The notes under the pieces: model-generated
What the model was told of the DNA's origin: nothing
What the model saw: only the letters and a program-made list of their open reading frames with translations
Database searches by the model: none
In this document: piece after piece, positions 27,982-36,412 of the stretch
How positions within the stretch are numbered: the stretch's first letter is position 1
How the letters are laid out: each line of letters begins with the position of its first letter
Origin: Streptacidiphilus anmyonensis
GTDB taxonomy: Bacteria; Actinomycetota; Actinomycetes; Streptomycetales; Streptomycetaceae
NCBI RefSeq assembly: GCF_000787855.1
Contig: NZ_BBPQ01000080.1
Coordinates: forward strand, 1,958 to 38,369
Direction of reading: 5' to 3'
DNA length: 36,412 nucleotides
Position numbers and translations under genes: made by a program

Positions 27982-30900
27982 GTGCAGGGACGTATCAAGA
28001 GGGGCGGCGGCGCGGGCAACCCGGCGGACCGCGGAGCAGCTGGTCAGCAGCAGCCGTCGCCGAATGCCCCCCACGCCGCCGAGGGCTCTCGCCCCGGACC
28101 CGCCGCGGGCCGACCCGGCCCCGAGACCGCCGGCCCGGGCGCCACACCAGGCGCGGGCGCCGGGAACGCCAAGGGCGACCAGAAGGACGGTCCCGCCGGC
28201 GCGAGCCGGATCGGCCGGGTGACCCCGCCCAAGGCCGCCAGGACCCGTCGGTTCTCCCTGGGCAACTGGCGCATCCGCTCCAGGCTCACCGCGCTGCTCG
28301 TGCTCCCCGTGGTCGCCGCCATCGTCCTCGGTGGTCTGCGCATCCAGGGCTCGATCCAGACGCAGCAGCAGCTGGACAGCGTCGCCAAGCTCGGTGACGT
28401 GGCCCAGGCCGCCACCCTGCTCGCCACCGCGCTCGAGAACGAGCGCGACGACATGGCGCTCGCGAGCGGCATCCAGGGCCAGAGCGTGCAGAGCAACAGC
28501 CAGGTCCTCTACGACATGTCGCAGACCGCCAAGCGTCACCAGACGCTGAGCAACCTGATCGACTCGCTCGACAAGACCCAGCTGCCGGGCAACGGCGTCG
28601 ACATCACCTCGGTGCAGACCAAGCTCCAGCAGCTGCGCCAGATCGAGGCGAACGCCTTCGCGTACCCGACGGCCGACGCCACGGCCGGCCCGAACCTGCA
28701 GAAGACCGTCGCCGAGTTCGACGGCCTGATCGCCCCGCTGACCCAGGTGACCCAGGACCTGGCCCTCGCCTCCTCGAACCTCCAGCTGGTCCAGGCGACC
28801 CGCTCGCTCCAGGCGTTCACGCAGTGGCACGAGGACATGGCCATCGTCCGCTCCACGCTGCTCGGCGCGCTCGCCTACCAGCAGCCGGGCGCGACGGGCC
28901 CGACGCCGGTCATCCAGCCGAGCGACCGGCAGTACGCCGCCGCGGCGCTGGCGGACGCGAACACCTCGCAGCAGGAGTTCACCGCCCTGTACGGCCCGAG
29001 CAAGGCCGGCAACCTGATCGGCGCCTGGCAGTCCAACACCAACATCTCCGAGGCCCAGCGCTGGGCCTCCAAGGTGCTGAGCGCCAACACGCCGCTCTCG
29101 AACGAGACCGAGACCGCGCAGGACTGGTACTCGCAGTCCCACACGCAGATGCTGCAGATGGCCCAGGACGAGTCCTTCCTGGTCCAGGAGCTGAACACGA
29201 CGTCCGCCAACCTGCGCTCGCAGGCCCAGGCCGACGCCTACGCCAACGCCGGTCTGATCGTCGCGGTCCTCCTGGTCGCCATCCTCGGCGCCGGTCTGGT
29301 GGCCCGCTCGATGGTGCGCACGCTGGCCAAGCTGCAGCAGACCGCCGAGGACGTCGCCGAGCACACGCTGCCGGAGATGGTCCGCAAGCTGTCCGAGTCC
29401 GACCCGCAGGACGTGGACGTCACGATCCAGCCGATCGGCATCGACACCAGGGACGAGATCGGGCACGTGGCCCGAGCCTTCGACAAGGTCCACAGCCAGG
29501 CCGTCCGGCTCGCCGCCGAGCAGGCCCTGCTCCGAGGCAACATCAACGCGATGTTCACCAACCTCTCGCGCCGCTCCCAGGGTCTGATCCAGCGTCAGCT
29601 GGCCATGATCTCCGAGCTGGAGTCGCGTGAGGCGGACCCGGACCAGCTGGCCCAGCTGTTCAAGCTCGACCACCTCGCGACGCGTATGCGTCGTAACGGT
29701 GAGAACCTCCTCGTCCTCGCAGGTGAGGACCCGGGCCGTCGCTGGACCCGCCCGGTCCCGCTGGTCGACGTGCTCCGTGCCGCCGCCTCCGAGGTGGAGC
29801 AGTACGAGCGCATCGAGCTGGCCTCGGTGCCGACCGCCGAGGTCGCCGGCCGCGTCGTCAACGACCTCGTGCACCTGCTCGCCGAGCTGCTCGAGAACGC
29901 CACCTCGTTCTCCAGCCCGCAGACCCGCGTCCGGGTCACCGGTCACGCGCTGCCCGACGGCCGCGTGCTGATCGAGATCCACGACACCGGCATCGGCCTC
30001 TCCCCCGACGACCTGGCCGAGATCAACGAGCGCCTGGCGAACCCGCCGGTGGTGGACGTCTCCGTCTCCCGCCGCATGGGCCTCTTCGTGGTCGGTCGAC
30101 TCTCGCTGCGTCACGGCATCCGCATCCAGCTGCGTCCGAGCGACTCCGGCGGCACCACCGCGCTGGTCATGCTCCCGGTCGACGTCACCAACGTGTCCGA
30201 GCGCCGCGCCGGTGCGACGGGTGGCACCAAGGCCGCTCCGGCGGGCCAGCAGCGTCCGGCCGCGCCGAGCGGTCCGCAGCGCACGCCGCTGGCCTCCGGC
30301 CCGCAGGGCGGCCTCGACGGCCGTGGCGGCCGTCCCACGCTGCCGCAGCAGTCGCAGCCGAACCTGGGCCTGCCGCAGGGCTCCTCGGCGGGCTCCGCGC
30401 CCGCCGGTTCCCCGCAGGGCGGCCTGCCGCAGCGCGGCGCCCAGCCGACCGACGGCCGCGGACTGCCGACCGGCCCCAACGCCGGCCAGGACAACACCTT
30501 CGGCGGCCAGCCCCTGCCGCAGCGCGGCGCCCAGCCCACCGACGGCCGCGGACTGCCGACCGGCCCCAACGCCGGCCAGGGCTTCCCGCAGGCGGGGCCG
30601 ACCGGTCAGCCCGGTGGCTTCGACTCCAGCCGTACCGACGGCCGCGGCATGCCGCTGCCCGGCGCCGGTCCGCTGCCGCAGCGCGGCATGCCGGGCCAGG
30701 CTCCCCAGCAGCCGGGCCAGCAGCAGCCGTTCGGCGTCCCGGGTGCTCCCGGGGCGGCCGGCGGTCGCGGCGACGCCGGCTTCGGCCAGGAGCGCGGCCC
30801 CGAGCCCTCGCTCTGGGCCGAGCAGCCGCAGCACGGCTCGCCCGCGGGCGGCCGGAACGACGGCCAGGGCCCCGGCGGCCACGCCCTCGGTGGGCAGAGC

Positions 30901-31698
30901 CACGGCGGCCACCCCCTCGGCGGCCAGGCTCCGGCCGGTCAGGGCTTCGGCGGCCAGAACGCCATCGGTGACAGCACCGCGCAGTTCGCCCGCCCGCGCT
31001 TCGACGAGGAGCCCCCGGCCCGTCCGGTGCCGCCGGCTCCGGTCCCGCCGCAGCCGCAGCCCGCGTCGCAGCAGGACTTCGCGTCCGACCCGCTCACCCG
31101 CGCGCTGCCCCCGGCGAGCGACTCCGGTGCTCCGTCGCCGATCTTCGAGCAGATGGAGACCACCTGGTTCCGCGCCGGTCGCGCCGAGCGGATGCGCGGC
31201 GTGCAGGTCTCCGGCGCGGAGGCGGGCGGCCCGTCGGTCTCCGGGACCGAGCAGTTCGGCGGCCCTTCGGCCACCGGTCAGTTCGACACCGCGCAGTTCG
31301 GCGCGGACCAGTTCGGCGGCCGTCCGGCCGACGGCGGGCCCGCCCGTCCCGTGCAGGGCCCCTCGGGCTCGACCGGCGTCACCGGCCTGAACGCCGACCA
31401 GACGCCGTGGCGCAGCTCGGCCAACGACGAGACGTGGCGCCGGGCCGAGCAGGTGCGCGAGCCGAGTGCGGGCGGCGTGATGCCCTCCGGTCTGCCGCGC
31501 CGCGTGCCGAAGGCCAACCTGGTCCCGGGCCAGGCGGAGTCCCAGGCTCTTCCCGGTCCGCAGGTCTCCCGCAACCCGGACGAGGTCCGCGGGCGTCTCA
31601 CCAACCTGCGTCGCGGCATCCAGCAGGGCCGCGCCGCCGGTTCGTCCGGTCCCGGTCAGGGCTCCGGCCCGTACGGCAGCAACTCCCAGGAGCGTTGA
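27982..31698 (+). CDS. Nitrate/nitrite-sensor (NIT) domain histidine kinase-like protein CvnA
   Basis: First gene of a conservon, the membrane sensor-like ATPase. 1,238 residues: disordered Gly/Pro/Ala-rich cytoplasmic leader (1-95), transmembrane helix (102-119), extracellular NIT-type helical domain (about 122-420), second membrane helix (about 422-442), HAMP linker, a helical dimer region with FKLDHLATRMRRNGENLL (His564), and a HATPase_c domain with N-box ELLENAT (Asn639) and G-box DTGIGLS. From about 745 to the end is a long Gly/Gln/Pro tail with repeats. The GTG at 27982 gives VQGRIKRGGG, as in homologues; upstream frame is not supported. Whether His564 is phosphorylated is unknown: this class does not show the classic HE motif and has no response regulator beside it. 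The tail may bind CvnB-D. Confidence 0.93.
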   Translation: MQGRIKRGGGAGNPADRGAAGQQQPSPNAPHAAEGSRPGPAAGRPGPETAGPGATPGAGAGNAKGDQKDGPAGASRIGRVTPPKAARTRRFSLGNWRIRSRLTALLVLPVVAAIVLGGLRIQGSIQTQQQLDSVAKLGDVAQAATLLATALENERDDMALASGIQGQSVQSNSQVLYDMSQTAKRHQTLSNLIDSLDKTQLPGNGVDITSVQTKLQQLRQIEANAFAYPTADATAGPNLQKTVAEFDGLIAPLTQVTQDLALASSNLQLVQATRSLQAFTQWHEDMAIVRSTLLGALAYQQPGATGPTPVIQPSDRQYAAAALADANTSQQEFTALYGPSKAGNLIGAWQSNTNISEAQRWASKVLSANTPLSNETETAQDWYSQSHTQMLQMAQDESFLVQELNTTSANLRSQAQADAYANAGLIVAVLLVAILGAGLVARSMVRTLAKLQQTAEDVAEHTLPEMVRKLSESDPQDVDVTIQPIGIDTRDEIGHVARAFDKVHSQAVRLAAEQALLRGNINAMFTNLSRRSQGLIQRQLAMISELESREADPDQLAQLFKLDHLATRMRRNGENLLVLAGEDPGRRWTRPVPLVDVLRAAASEVEQYERIELASVPTAEVAGRVVNDLVHLLAELLENATSFSSPQTRVRVTGHALPDGRVLIEIHDTGIGLSPDDLAEINERLANPPVVDVSVSRRMGLFVVGRLSLRHGIRIQLRPSDSGGTTALVMLPVDVTNVSERRAGATGGTKAAPAGQQRPAAPSGPQRTPLASGPQGGLDGRGGRPTLPQQSQPNLGLPQGSSAGSAPAGSPQGGLPQRGAQPTDGRGLPTGPNAGQDNTFGGQPLPQRGAQPTDGRGLPTGPNAGQGFPQAGPTGQPGGFDSSRTDGRGMPLPGAGPLPQRGMPGQAPQQPGQQQPFGVPGAPGAAGGRGDAGFGQERGPEPSLWAEQPQHGSPAGGRNDGQGPGGHALGGQSHGGHPLGGQAPAGQGFGGQNAIGDSTAQFARPRFDEEPPARPVPPAPVPPQPQPASQQDFASDPLTRALPPASDSGAPSPIFEQMETTWFRAGRAERMRGVQVSGAEAGGPSVSGTEQFGGPSATGQFDTAQFGADQFGGRPADGGPARPVQGPSGSTGVTGLNADQTPWRSSANDETWRRAEQVREPSAGGVMPSGLPRRVPKANLVPGQAESQALPGPQVSRNPDEVRGRLTNLRRGIQQGRAAGSSGPGQGSGPYGSNSQER
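30424..30580 (+). repeat. 90-base direct repeat in the CvnA tail
   Basis: 30424-30490 and 30514-30580 are the same 67 bases with one mismatch, spaced by 90 bases (30 codons). Each encodes LPQRGAQPTDGRGLPTGPNA. The near identity at DNA level suggests a recent duplication or a spot for length change. Confidence 0.9.
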
Positions 31699-31701
31699 TC
31701 A

Positions 31702-32125
31702 ATGAGTCAGATGAGCCAGGCGGCCCAGAACCTCAACTGGTTGATCACCAACTTCGTCGACAACACCCCCGGGGTGTCGCACACCGTGGTGGTCTCGGCC
31801 GACGGTCTGCTGCTCGCCATGTCCGAGGGCTTCCCCCGTGACCGTGCCGACCAGCTCGCCGCCGTCGCCTCCGGCCTCACCTCGCTGACCCAGGGCGCCT
31901 CCCGGATCTTCGAGGGCGGCAAGGTCACCCAGACCGTCGTGGAGATGGAGCGCGGCTTCCTCTTCCTCATGGCGGTCTCCGACGGCTCCTCCCTCGCCGT
32001 CCTCGCCTCCCCCGACAGCGACATCGGCCTCGTCGGCTACGAGATGGCCCTCCTGGTCGACCGCGCCGGCACCGTGCTCACCCCGGCCCTCCGCGCCGAA
32101 CTCCAGGGGCAGTCTCCTGCACTGA
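31702..32125 (+). CDS. Roadblock/LC7 protein CvnB, stop lost by an apparent one-base insertion
   Basis: Roadblock protein of the conservon, expected to regulate the GTPase CvnD. Sequence MSQMSQAAQNLNWLITNF, VSHTVVVSADGLLLAMSEGF, LAVLASPDSDIGLVGYEMAL is typical. ATG at 31702 follows AGGAG in the cvnA end. As printed there is no stop at the usual place: codons run CTC CAG GGG CAG TCT. With one G fewer in the GGGG run at 32106-32109 it reads LQGSLLH and then TGA (32123-32125), giving 140 residues, the ending I recall for homologues. As given, the frame stays open to 32772, fusing with cvnC (356 residues in all). Either a sequencing error or a true fusion. Confidence 0.85.
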
Positions 32126-32397
32126 CGCGGTGTCGGTCCGGTGTGGAACGGATGAGAGATAGACCACCTCGGCCCGTGAATCCCGACCCGGTCGGGACTC
32201 ACGGGCCGTCGGCCCCGTACACTCCGGTGCCACTCGTGTCGCGGCTCGCGCCTCGGCACTCCGGAAGAAGACCAGCGGTACCCACAGCAGCACCCCGCAC
32301 AAGCAGCACCGCACCGCAGCACGCCAGACCCGCAACACGGCACCACCCACCCTCGCCGCGGAAAGGCACGACGGCCGCTGCAGCACTAGGAGGACTG
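32126..32397. other. Probable cvnB-cvnC spacer, open only in the printed frame
   Basis: The 272 bases translate without a stop, but roughly 40% of the codons end in A or T (by eye), against few in the flanking genes; the peptide is Pro/Arg/Thr-rich with no fold. It contains a strong hairpin (32171-32207) and TACACT (32218-32223), a possible -10 box. Confidence 0.6.
32171..32207 (+). terminator. Long hairpin between cvnB and cvnC
   Basis: GGCCCGTGA (32171-32179) pairs with TCACGGGCC (32199-32207); one A-C mismatch, then TCCCGAC (32181-32187) pairs with GTCGGGA (32191-32197). It looks like a terminator or attenuator, which would make CvnCD levels differ from CvnAB. Confidence 0.65.
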
Positions 32398-32772
32398 ATG
32401 ACGACACCGCACGGAGGCCAGGGCGGCGCACGCCAGCCGCTGGTACGCCCGTATGCGATGACCGGCGGCCGGACCCGTCCGCGCTACCAGCTCGCCATCG
32501 AGGCGCTGGTCACCAGCACGCCCCAGGCGTACCGCTCGGGCACGCTGCTGCCGGAGCACGCGCGGATCGTCGACCTGTGCCGCGAGGTCAAGTCGGTGGC
32601 GGAGGTCTCCGCCCTGGTCCCCATGCCGCTCGGCGTCGCCCGCATCCTCGTCGCCGACCTGGCCGAGGCGGGCCTGGTCGCCATCCACCAGCCGGCCGCC
32701 GCCGCCGACAACGGCGGCGCCCCCGACGTCACGCTGCTCGAAAGGGTGCTCAGTGGACTTCGCAAGCTCTAG
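32398..32772 (+). CDS. DUF742 protein CvnC
   Basis: Third protein of the conservon, 124 residues, DUF742 with a winged-helix-like fold; its role is not established, but it is always found with CvnB and CvnD. Sequence begins MTTPHGGQGGARQPLVRPYA, then RPRYQLAIEALV, EHARIVDLCREVKSVAEVSA and PMPLGVARILVADLAEAGLV. ATG at 32398 has a strong AGGAGG four bases upstream, evidence that translation starts here, not as a tail of CvnB. Ends VLSGLRKL; the stop overlaps cvnD by 20 bases. Confidence 0.94.
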   Translation: MTTPHGGQGGARQPLVRPYAMTGGRTRPRYQLAIEALVTSTPQAYRSGTLLPEHARIVDLCREVKSVAEVSALVPMPLGVARILVADLAEAGLVAIHQPAAAADNGGAPDVTLLERVLSGLRKL

Positions 32773-33337
32773 CCCCGCCACGGCCACCCGGGCCACCACC
32801 TCCGCGAAGATCGTGGTGGCGGGCGGCTTCGGCGTGGGCAAGACGACCCTCGTCGGCGCGGTCTCCGAGATCAACCCGCTGCGTACCGAGGCCGTGATGA
32901 CCTCGGCCTCGGCCGGGATCGACGACCTGACCCACGTCGGCGGGAAGACCACGACCACGGTCGCCATGGACTTCGGCCGCATCACGCTCGACGCGGACCT
33001 GATCCTCTACCTGTTCGGCACGCCCGGACAGGACCGCTTCTGGTTCATGTGGGACGACCTGGTCCGCGGCGCCATCGGCGCCGTCGTCCTGGTCGACACC
33101 CGCCGCCTCGCCGACTGCTTCCCGGCCATCGACTACTTCGAGAACAGCGGCCTGCCGTTCATCGTCGCGCTGAACAACTTCGACGGCTTCGTCACGCACA
33201 GCCCCGAAGAGGTGCGCGAGGCGCTGCAGTTGGGGCCGGACACACCCATCATCGCCACCGACGCCCGGCGGCGGGACAGCGCCAAGTCGACGCTGATCAC
33301 GCTCGTCGAGCACGCGCTGCTCGCAAGACTGCGCTGA
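32753..33337 (+). CDS. Conservon small GTPase CvnD
   Basis: Ras-like GTPase of 194 residues, the output arm of the conservon. G1/P-loop is GGFGVGKTT (about 24-32), a G2-like Thr-rich segment GGKTTTTVAMDFG follows, G3 is FGTPGQDRFWFMWD near 88, and the G4 position is LNNFDG in place of NKxD, as is usual in this family. The GTG at 32753 overlaps cvnC by 20 bases, so it is coupled. It has no membrane anchor and probably sits at the membrane through CvnA/B. Confidence 0.95.
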   Translation: MDFASSSPATATRATTSAKIVVAGGFGVGKTTLVGAVSEINPLRTEAVMTSASAGIDDLTHVGGKTTTTVAMDFGRITLDADLILYLFGTPGQDRFWFMWDDLVRGAIGAVVLVDTRRLADCFPAIDYFENSGLPFIVALNNFDGFVTHSPEEVREALQLGPDTPIIATDARRRDSAKSTLITLVEHALLARLR

Positions 33338-33647: not shown

Positions 33648-36412
33648 GTGAGCCACAACGAGGCAGCTCCAGGTGCCGGTAGCGCACCCCAGGTCCGGCC
33701 TGCAGGTCGGCTCTCCCTGAGCAACCGCCGCCTACCCTTCAAGCTGATCGCGATCCTCCTGGTTCCCGTCGTCGCAGCCCTGGCGTTCGCCGGACTGCGC
33801 GTACAGAGCTCGGTCACGAGCTGGCGGAACGCCCAGGACGCGGAGAAGACGGCGAAGCTCGTCGAGGCGGCGGCCGCGGTCGAGGAGGACATCGACCTCG
33901 AACGCAACGGCTCGCTCCCCTACCTGATGACGCCGGCCGAGGCGCAGAAGCCGAACCAGACGGTCACGGATCTGCAGAACACGACCAACGCGGCGATCGC
34001 CAACTTCAAGCAGCTGGCCGCCGGCGCGCCGAACATCGGCCATGTGCGGACCCGCGTCGCGGACGCCCTGAAGGAACTCCAGGGCATCGACGCGATGCGG
34101 AAGAGGGACTACAGCCAACCGGGCACCACGACCGAGATCCAGTACTCCTCGCTCACCTCCGCGCTCCAGGGTCTCGACAACGAGCTCGTCTTCGGCAACG
34201 GCAGCAGCATCAACTCCGACGGCCGCGCGATCTACGCGATCACCCTGGCCAAGGACGCCGACTCGATCGTGCAGTCCATCGTGCTGCACCTGCTGCTGGA
34301 GAAGTACGAGCCGGACGGCAACCCGAAGAGCCCGGCCTCGCAGGCCTACGCAAGCCAGCAGCTCGGCGCCTACGCGTACTACTACCTCGAGGGCATCGCC
34401 CAGGAGGAGTTCACCAACTCCGCCGACCCGGCCTTCGTCGCCGCGCTGAACCAGGGCCTGCAGAACGTGCAGGCCGCCATGGAGAACAGCGCCCAGCAGG
34501 CCGCGGCCGCGGCCCAGGCCAGCGGCGGACAGGCCAAGAAGCCGCTGACCATCGACCAGATGGTCGCGATCGTCTACACCGCCCCGACGCCGCACGCCGC
34601 GAAGGCCGCGGGCGTCACGCCGACGCTGTGGGTCAACGAGACCAACGCCGTCTTCGACGCGCTGCGCAACGTCGAGAAGAAGCTGATCGCCGACGCGGTG
34701 AGCCAGTCCTCGACCGAGGCGAGCAGCGCCCGCAACGACGCCGTCATGAACGGCGCGATCGTGCTCGTCGCGGTGCTCCTGGCCGGCCTGGTGACCACGC
34801 TGGTGGCCCGTTCGATGATCGGCAACATGCGCCGCCTGCGGGACGGCGCCCAGCAGGTCGCCCAGCAGCGCCTGCCCGACCTGGTGCGTCAGCTGTCCAA
34901 GACCGACCCCGGCAGGGTCGACCTGACGGTCGCCCCGATCCAGGTGAACGGCAAGGACGAGATCGCCGAGGTCGCCCGCGCCTTCGACGAGGTCCACCGC
35001 GAGGCCATCCGACTCGCCTCCGAGCAGGCCATGCTCCGTGGCAACGTCAACGCGATCTTCACCAACCTCTCGCGCCGCTCGCACGGTCTGATCGAACGCC
35101 AGCTGGCGCTGATCACGGACCTGGAGAACCACGAGGCCGACCCGGACCAGCTGGAGAACCTCTTCAAGCTGGACCACCTCGCCACCCGCATGCGCCGCAA
35201 CGGCGAGAACCTGCTGGTTCTGGCGGGCGAGGACGCCGGCCGCTCCTGGGGTGAGCCGATCCCGCTGGTGGACGTGCTCCGCGCGGCCGCCTCCGAGGTG
35301 GAGCAGTACGAGCGCATCGAACTGGCCGGCATACCCGAGACCGACGTCGTCGGCCCCGCGGTCACCGACCTCGTGCACCTGCTCGCCGAGTTGCTGGAGA
35401 ACGCCACCACCTTCTCCAGCCCGCAGACCAAGGTCCGGGTCACCGCGACCCGCCTGCCCGACCAGCGCGTGCTGGTCGAGATCCACGACAAGGGCATCGG
35501 CCTCACCGCCGAGGACTTCGCGGAGATCAACGCGAAGCTGGCCGAGCCGCCCACCGTGGACGCCTCCGTCTCCCGGCAGATGGGCCTCTTCGTGGTCGGC
35601 CGCCTGGCCGAGCGCCACGGCATCCGGGTCCAGCTGCGCCCCTCCGGCGAGTCCGCCGGCACCACCTCCCTGGTCATGCTGCCCGAGCGGCTGACCCAGG
35701 TCGGCGGCGTCGCCCAGCCCGAGGAGCAGTTCACCGTCTCCCGCATCTACCCGGAGTCCGCTCAGGGCGCCGAGATGCCGGGCATGCGCACCGCGAGCGA
35801 GCTGGGCTTCGACGACAGCCGCTACGACCGGGCCCTGGAGGCGGGCGACCAGGCCTCCGCCCTCGACTCGGTGCAGCGCTCGCTGCGCCTCGGCCAGCGC
35901 CGCCACGCGGCCGCGCTGGAGACCGGCGAGCCGCTCGACCCCACGGCGCAGGGCGCCCCCGCCTCGTTCCGTGGCAACGGCCAGCCGCCCGCCGAGTACG
36001 GCGACTACGGCTCCGGCCGCGAGTACGGCGGCCAGGAGTACGCGGGCCAGGAGTACGGCAACGGCAACCGCACCTTCGAGCAGAACTTCGACGCCGAGTA
36101 CCGCTCGGAGTTCGGCGCCCAGTTCGGCGCCGAGCCGGGCAACGACTACTCCGGCGCCGGTGAGTACGGCGGCTACGGCCGCGGCGGGGAGCCCGCGACG
36201 GGCCACCCGCAGGAGACCGGCTTCGAGACCGGCCGCTACACCTCCCAGCACTTCGAGGCCGGCGTCGCCGACCAGGGCGGCTACGGCACGGACTACGCCG
36301 CCGAGGACACCTACTTCACCCCGGGCTCCACCCCGGGCATGCAGCACTACGGCACGGGCGCCCCGACCTACGAGCCCGGCCCCGCCCCCACGCAGGGCGC
36401 GCAGCCGCCCGC
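33648..36412 (+). CDS. Second CvnA-like sensor kinase, cut by right edge
   Basis: Starts another conservon-type operon; the partners would lie beyond the window. About 921 residues are present. Transmembrane helix 1 is about 33-52 (LIAILLVPVVAALAFAGL), an extracellular NIT-like domain to about 368, helix 2 about 369-388, HAMP, dimer region with FKLDHLATRMRRNGENLL (His510), HATPase_c with ELLENAT (Asn585) and DKGIGL. From about 685 a disordered tail with Tyr/Gly/Gln/Glu repeats (YGGQEYAGQEYGNG). The cytoplasmic core is nearly the same as in the first CvnA, but the sensor domain is not, so they sense different signals. Start is unsure: GTG 33648 has GAGAGG nine bases upstream; in-frame ATGs at 33597 and 33609 have none. 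Confidence 0.92.
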   Translation, partial: MSHNEAAPGAGSAPQVRPAGRLSLSNRRLPFKLIAILLVPVVAALAFAGLRVQSSVTSWRNAQDAEKTAKLVEAAAAVEEDIDLERNGSLPYLMTPAEAQKPNQTVTDLQNTTNAAIANFKQLAAGAPNIGHVRTRVADALKELQGIDAMRKRDYSQPGTTTEIQYSSLTSALQGLDNELVFGNGSSINSDGRAIYAITLAKDADSIVQSIVLHLLLEKYEPDGNPKSPASQAYASQQLGAYAYYYLEGIAQEEFTNSADPAFVAALNQGLQNVQAAMENSAQQAAAAAQASGGQAKKPLTIDQMVAIVYTAPTPHAAKAAGVTPTLWVNETNAVFDALRNVEKKLIADAVSQSSTEASSARNDAVMNGAIVLVAVLLAGLVTTLVARSMIGNMRRLRDGAQQVAQQRLPDLVRQLSKTDPGRVDLTVAPIQVNGKDEIAEVARAFDEVHREAIRLASEQAMLRGNVNAIFTNLSRRSHGLIERQLALITDLENHEADPDQLENLFKLDHLATRMRRNGENLLVLAGEDAGRSWGEPIPLVDVLRAAASEVEQYERIELAGIPETDVVGPAVTDLVHLLAELLENATTFSSPQTKVRVTATRLPDQRVLVEIHDKGIGLTAEDFAEINAKLAEPPTVDASVSRQMGLFVVGRLAERHGIRVQLRPSGESAGTTSLVMLPERLTQVGGVAQPEEQFTVSRIYPESAQGAEMPGMRTASELGFDDSRYDRALEAGDQASALDSVQRSLRLGQRRHAAALETGEPLDPTAQGAPASFRGNGQPPAEYGDYGSGREYGGQEYAGQEYGNGNRTFEQNFDAEYRSEFGAQFGAEPGNDYSGAGEYGGYGRGGEPATGHPQETGFETGRYTSQHFEAGVADQGGYGTDYAAEDTYFTPGSTPGMQHYGTGAPTYEPGPAPTQGAQPP

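Follow-up and report, generated by a model that had tools for sequence, protein, structure and literature searches.

The joined cvnB1-cvnC frame in the Streptacidiphilus anmyonensis draft genome is probably a slip between near-identical tandem cvnB copies

Does Streptacidiphilus anmyonensis make a Roadblock protein fused to a DUF742 protein, or does one extra base in the draft sequence make it appear so? In the window (the whole stretch of DNA that was analysed, 36,412 nucleotides), an unbroken open reading frame on the forward strand runs from the ATG at 31702 to the TAG at 32772 and encodes 356 residues. Pfam finds a complete Robl_LC7 domain (residues 11-102) and a complete DUF742 domain (residues 244-356) in this product, both above the cut-offs, which agrees with the earlier note, where the Roadblock frame was read as running on into cvnC to give a protein of this length. 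A conservon CvnB is a separate Roadblock protein of about 137-140 residues ending in LQGSLLH or similar; as printed, the frame in S. anmyonensis runs to 356 residues. The order of the Pfam matches on one strand, sensor kinase, Roadblock/LC7, DUF742 and small GTPase, is that of a conservon (cvnABCD operon). The features of the locus are as follows.

27982-31698, forward strand: cvnA1, sensor histidine-kinase-like (NIT, HAMP, HATPase_c), from Pfam and a coding-like open reading frame
31702-32125, forward strand: cvnB1, Roadblock/LC7 (MglB-like), from Pfam and alignment with the sister species
32106-32109, forward strand: GGGG, from sequence comparison with the sister cvnB1 and cvnB2 copies
32126-32397, forward strand: intercistronic spacer of 272 nt, a linker only in the printed sequence of S. 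anmyonensis, from codon-position GC and evenly spread differences
32167-32212, forward strand: spacer hairpin, kept in five sister species, from folding and comparison with the sisters
32388-32393, forward strand: AGGAGG ribosome-binding site of cvnC, from the sequence
32398-32772, forward strand: cvnC, DUF742, with its own ATG at 32398, from the open reading frame and Pfam
32753-33337, forward strand: cvnD, small GTPase-like (ATP_bind_1), from the open reading frame and Pfam
33650-36412 (start approximate), forward strand: 5' part of a second tandem conservon with a cvnA2-like kinase gene, truncated at the contig end, from similarity and the gene order of S. melanogenes

The HAMP match in the cvnA1 product is below the Pfam cut-off, and none of the four proteins submitted to NCBIfam was assigned to a family. 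A sequence search of the PDB gave four hits, all on the Roadblock part; three are named cvnB5 or Robl_LC7, and one is Rv3364c. The cvnA2-like assignment is based on the segment 34762-35683, for which the cvnA1 region of S. melanogenes gives a 78% match. The window contains no N, and its end is the end of contig C74. The cvnB2, cvnC2 and cvnD2 genes of S. anmyonensis are on a separate contig, C106, and no end overlap joining C74 and C106 was found. The draft of strain NBRC 103185 comprises 9,386,419 bases in 153 scaffolds, obtained from MiSeq reads only at 68-fold coverage and assembled with Newbler 2.6 (PMC4290990).

The difference from the relatives was localized to a single base. Thirteen other genomes of the genus were searched, and the top three scores at this locus came from S. 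melanogenes (G006), S. neutrinimicus (G007) and S. pinicola (G008). The window reads GGGGCAGTC, whereas cvnB1 reads GGGCAGTC in S. melanogenes and S. neutrinimicus and AGGCAGCC in S. pinicola. In other words, the GGGG at 32106-32109, which is present as the earlier note had it, is GGG in the first two sisters and AGG in the third. All three have one base fewer and keep the normal frame to LLH and a stop codon at the same place. The TGA at 32123-32125 aligns with the cvnB stop of these relatives, and it is out of frame in the window through the one extra base. A pattern scan with a stretch of the spacer returned S. neutrinimicus, S. pinicola and S. melanogenes only; no second assembly of S. anmyonensis was among the matches.

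A survey of 71 other cvnB copies gave the same picture. Sixty-six are intact, none is fused to cvnC, three are frameshifted elsewhere, and two (both in G004) run off contig ends. The intact copies end in GSLLH (62), GSLLG (2), GSLLY (1) or GSLMH (1), so that LQGSLLH or a close variant, the ending that the earlier note gave for homologues, is found in 66 of 71. Two of the three frameshifted copies are those of G013 (L053), a genome rated 76% complete, and the third is in G182 (L127); these frameshifts are probably assembly noise. This set was made of high-scoring places and automatically fetched loci and is hence biased to close relatives. It includes cvnB2 of S. anmyonensis and omits both loci that repeat the same places of the genus and copies lacking a start, such as those of S. 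neutrinimicus; two hits in L085 may be one gene. The intact stop of the relatives also bears on programmed frameshifting or slippage on GGGG that would restore normal CvnB. The site does hold a G run, but a stop that is intact in the normal frame means that no conserved need for such a device exists; its probability is considered to be negligible, and it was set aside on this ground.

The stretch between the two domains does not resemble a coding sequence. From the GGGG to the ATG of cvnC it covers 32110-32397, i.e. 288 nt or 96 codons. The joining that the earlier note described is real in the printed sequence, and its length of about 98 codons is corrected to 96. Read in the fused frame, 32107-32399 has A or T at the end of 38% of its codons (about 40% had been estimated by eye), compared with 4% in cvnB and 6.5% in cvnA. 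The GC contents at the first, second and third codon positions of this stretch are 0.72, 0.74 and 0.62, with the third below the other two, and those of cvnB (0.67, 0.45 and 0.96) and cvnD (0.63, 0.49 and 0.96) rise at the third position. The differences from the sisters are spread evenly over the three codon positions: 5/4/5 from S. melanogenes, 5/5/5 from S. neutrinimicus and 14/14/12 from S. pinicola. In addition, the spacer differs from that of S. melanogenes by one 2-base gap and one 1-base gap. No coding signature was thus found in the linker.

That the frame is open all the way to cvnC is no more than chance gives in high-GC DNA. Traced upstream from the ATG, the cvnC frame is closed after 78 codons by a stop in S. 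melanogenes and S. neutrinimicus; in S. pinicola, G002, G005, G009 and G011 it stays open and enters cvnB out of frame with that gene. When the frame of intact relatives was shifted at this site, a +1 shift gave an open join in frame with cvnC in 6 of 43 and a -1 shift in 4 of 43 (cvnC could be located by motif for 43 of 65 intact copies). Since a +1 shift makes six of these relatives readable in the same way, the open join between cvnB and cvnC is unremarkable. When the fused protein was aligned together with separate cvnB and cvnC rows, all 14 cvnB rows came out at 27-28% identity; the rows are probably misaligned.

These results bear on a selected CvnB-CvnC fusion, in which the two proteins would be tied 1:1 and internal initiation would add free CvnC. 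Neither domain is truncated, the two share one frame, and cvnC retains its own ribosome-binding site, AGGAGG at 32388-32393 followed by the ATG at 32398, as had been pointed out. However, no fused relative is among the 71 copies, the base composition of the linker is non-coding with its differences spread evenly over the codon positions, the nearest sisters meet a stop or read in a different frame at this place, and the spacer contains a conserved hairpin, as described below. Such a fusion is therefore considered very improbable. In the open-licence papers of PubMed Central, no fusion of DUF742 and Roadblock was found. Of the two readings offered in the earlier note, that of a new fusion fixing the CvnB:CvnC ratio at 1:1 is not borne out: no relative is fused, there is no coding signature, and a structured spacer takes the place of a linker. 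That of an error or one-base change is supported, as the stop is intact in the nearest sisters, which lack the extra base, the linker is non-coding-like, and the site borders a near-identical duplicate.

The strong hairpin noticed earlier in the connecting DNA is indeed present at 32167-32212, with a folding energy of -36.2 kcal/mol (z = -5.75; none of 200 shuffles was as good). Of the 120 nt at the start of the spacer, all 120 are identical in S. melanogenes and 119 in S. neutrinimicus, and most of the window shows a lower identity to S. melanogenes, about 92-94% in BLAST pieces. The hairpin element occurs once each in 6 of the 14 genomes of the genus, always in the cvnB-cvnC spacer. Over its five distinct sequences, 96.8% of the cells pair, and two pairs are changed on both sides; sliding the partners lowers the pairing to 26-52%. 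This level of pairing and covariation was matched by 39 of 500 shuffles, and the covariation is suggestive only. Other hairpins that beat all 20 shuffles are found in the spacers of G003 and, narrowly, G001; no such hairpin is seen in the cvnB-cvnC spacers of G002, G010, G011, G012 and G013. For an intrinsic terminator, the stem is present and the T run is absent, and the terminator scan gave 0 sites. A search of Rfam over 31600-32800 gave four weak matches, none of which reached the gathering score (best E 0.069).

The hairpin is interpreted as a putative intercistronic processing or attenuation element. In one column of a table for the bldC mutant of Streptomyces venezuelae, the values from cvnA1 to cvnD1 are -1.15, -1.52, -2.26 and -2.27 (PMC6428758). 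These values would be compatible with a boundary in expression between B and C, but they come from another genus, and no B/C step of this kind is seen for cvn4 in that table (PMC6428758).

Apart from one extra base close to the 3' end of cvnB1, the locus is a tandem conservon (cvnA-B-C-D) of the ordinary kind, and the source of that base seems to be indicated by the tandem paralogue. At the GGGG site, cvnB2 reads GGGG in S. anmyonensis, S. melanogenes and S. neutrinimicus. Over the gene, cvnB1 and cvnB2 of S. anmyonensis differ by seven letters, three of them at the site of the extra G. Those upstream, four in number, all fall on third positions and are synonymous, and residues 1-135 are identical. 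The two copies are identical over gene positions 241-408 (168 nt), a stretch that ends exactly in GGGG. After it, cvnB2 continues with AGCC, and the window with CAGTC, like cvnB1 of S. melanogenes and S. neutrinimicus. The window thus equals cvnB2 through GGGG and cvnB1 from CAG on, with one alignment column present twice. The site lies at the point where near-identical copies diverge, which is the position expected of an assembly slip. The GGGG of the paralogue would be a more specific source of the extra base than a homopolymer error.

Assembly or consensus slips at near-identical duplicates are a known kind of fault in short-read drafts. Reads from cvnB1 and cvnB2 may have aligned together; at the divergence point, the consensus would then have taken the GGGG of cvnB2 followed by cvnB1's own CAG, so that one alignment column was written twice. 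In the cell, CvnB1 would end at LQGSLLH, the 272-nt spacer with its hairpin would come next, and translation of CvnC would start at its own AGGAGG-ATG. The extra G is probably a slip made between near-identical copies during assembly or consensus calling, as judged from the sequences, and the base is most likely absent from the organism itself.

The same part of the gene causes trouble in related drafts. The scaffold of S. neutrinimicus (L043), whose draft was produced by the same method and reported in the same paper (PMC4290990), has N at 1099-1665 where cvnB1 begins, and the first 263 nt of cvnB1 are missing. Its second-copy contig ends in the same part of cvnB. Contig ends inside cvnB are also found in S. 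pinicola and G004. Because of this assembly trouble, the consensus slip is favoured over the two other mechanisms that give such a sequence, a conversion-tract scar and simple slippage, and an origin of the extra base in the assembly or consensus is what we infer. The case is like other short-read duplicate slips in that a one-base shift stands beside a near-identical paralogue and sister contigs or scaffolds break in the same gene. It is unlike them in that the flanks in S. anmyonensis were assembled without Ns, and a slip cannot be proved from the assembly alone.

Other gaps in the alignment with S. melanogenes were compared with that in cvnB. Of 88 gaps, 34 were checked, namely all those after about base 2300 that are not multiples of three and three others; the gaps before about base 2300 lie mostly where the two sequences do not align. 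Besides the gap in cvnB, three checked gaps are in called genes, one in a non-homologous part and two within 16 nt of a gene start (the gene caller is crude and missed cvnB and cvnC themselves). The gap in cvnB is the only checked frame-changing gap inside a gene body in the part homologous to S. melanogenes. This means that such gaps are rare in the window and that the sole one in a gene body is at a duplicate.

Several points speak against the slip. MiSeq reads, if long enough, could span the identical stretch of 168 nt. The assembler partly resolved the copies, since the four upstream substitutions still separate them. The window is free of N, and its genes have few other gaps that change the frame. 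A genuine +1 slippage in GGG would give the same sequence, and CvnB2, with its identical residues 1-135, could mask a real loss of CvnB1.

The main alternative is a real, recent and non-adaptive +1 frameshift in cvnB1, arising by slippage in the G run or as the scar at the end of a conversion tract from cvnB2. The 356-residue protein would then be made, and CvnC would still be initiated internally. Illumina sequencing, including MiSeq, rarely errs on a run of four Gs, which is not a typical homopolymer problem, and this is counted for a real frameshift. The equality of the window with cvnB2 up to GGGG and with cvnB1 after it fits a conversion end, and the identity of CvnB2 over residues 1-135 provides redundancy. 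However, conservation at the C-terminus is very strong, with exactly GSLLH as the ending of 62 of 71 copies, and the locus is assembly-prone in the sisters. Further evidence comes from the letters private to cvnB1 of the window when it is compared with cvnB2 and the two copies of S. melanogenes. They are at positions 138, 213, 240 and 415 and, the extra base aside, are all third-position changes in the frame of the relatives. One of them is a few bases past the extra base, which fits an intact frame. This suggests that cvnB1 was under selection in the relatives' frame until very recently, or still is. A real frameshift is thus possible, but we hold it with some doubt.

In S. anmyonensis, cvnB1 and cvnB2 are 0.983 identical, and their best orthologues among ten other genomes reach 0.965 and 0.974; with the homogenisation in other genera, this makes conversion ends plausible. 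The cvnB pair of a genome was compared with the best copy found in the other 18 genomes; in 18 of 19 cases the greater likeness is inside the genome, the exception being G001 (0.941 within, 0.944 elsewhere), and all cvnB copies are identical in 6 of the 19. This set was chosen from the best hits, with both copies read; 17 of the 19 are on contigs above 5 Mb, so that the likeness does not come from collapse. In 10 of 13 pairs outside Streptacidiphilus (exceptions G122, G053 and G170), the end of the identical stretch lies about 5 bases or less from the stop codon, a pattern expected of gene conversion that diverged flanks hold in check. Within Streptacidiphilus, 5 of 11 genomes (G000, G006, G005, G003 and G012) have copies closer to each other than either is to its best orthologue; this is not so in G009, G002, G010, G011, G001 and G013. 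The within-genome homogenisation of tandem cvnB looks like gene conversion, clear in some genera and mixed in Streptacidiphilus. No open-licence paper in PubMed Central was found on both cvnB and gene conversion.

Two related arrangements were also seen. Stretches of cvnD1 within 32796-33170 are identical or nearly so to cvnD2, and conversion may reach cvnD in a mosaic manner. In L101 (G053), two identical cvnB copies with a shared upstream stretch of 740 nt lie within 3.9 kb, with a further copy in L102; this is possibly an extra duplication.

The arrangement in S. anmyonensis resembles the tandem cvn1-cvn2 of Streptomyces in its order A-B-C-D, in the Roadblock CvnB, DUF742 CvnC and small GTPase CvnD, and in the second operon directly downstream. 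In Streptomyces coelicolor, CvnA1 is SCO5544 and CvnA2 is SCO5540 (PMC9739842). The tandem pair of S. anmyonensis is presumably orthologous to cvn1-cvn2. It differs from them in that cvnB1, as printed, lacks a stop, and none of the 71 other copies runs into cvnC. Fusions of Response_reg with Robl_LC7 are described as architectures in Pfam (PMC4316618), and they too join Roadblock to another signalling domain, but the join in S. anmyonensis is a single copy with a non-coding-like linker.

In excerpts of PMC8510531 and PMC13343842, the joint action of CvnB and CvnC is given as working models only. If true, a CvnB-CvnC fusion would be a handle on how both proteins cooperate, but the evidence is against it. 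We give little credence to a new fusion born as a conversion-tract scar between the tandem conservons, with free CvnC started internally; it would mean that the stoichiometry was changed in one of two parallel G-protein systems. The probable slip between the copies has a more general bearing. Tandem conservons may carry cvnB genes that are near-identical, or identical from end to end, and contigs built from short reads break off in or near cvnB. Apparent fusions, truncations and missing genes at tandem cvnB therefore need checks at the level of the reads. The homogenisation of cvnB, for its part, suggests an interchangeable Roadblock protein that may be common to both systems, which would bear on cross-talk between conservons.
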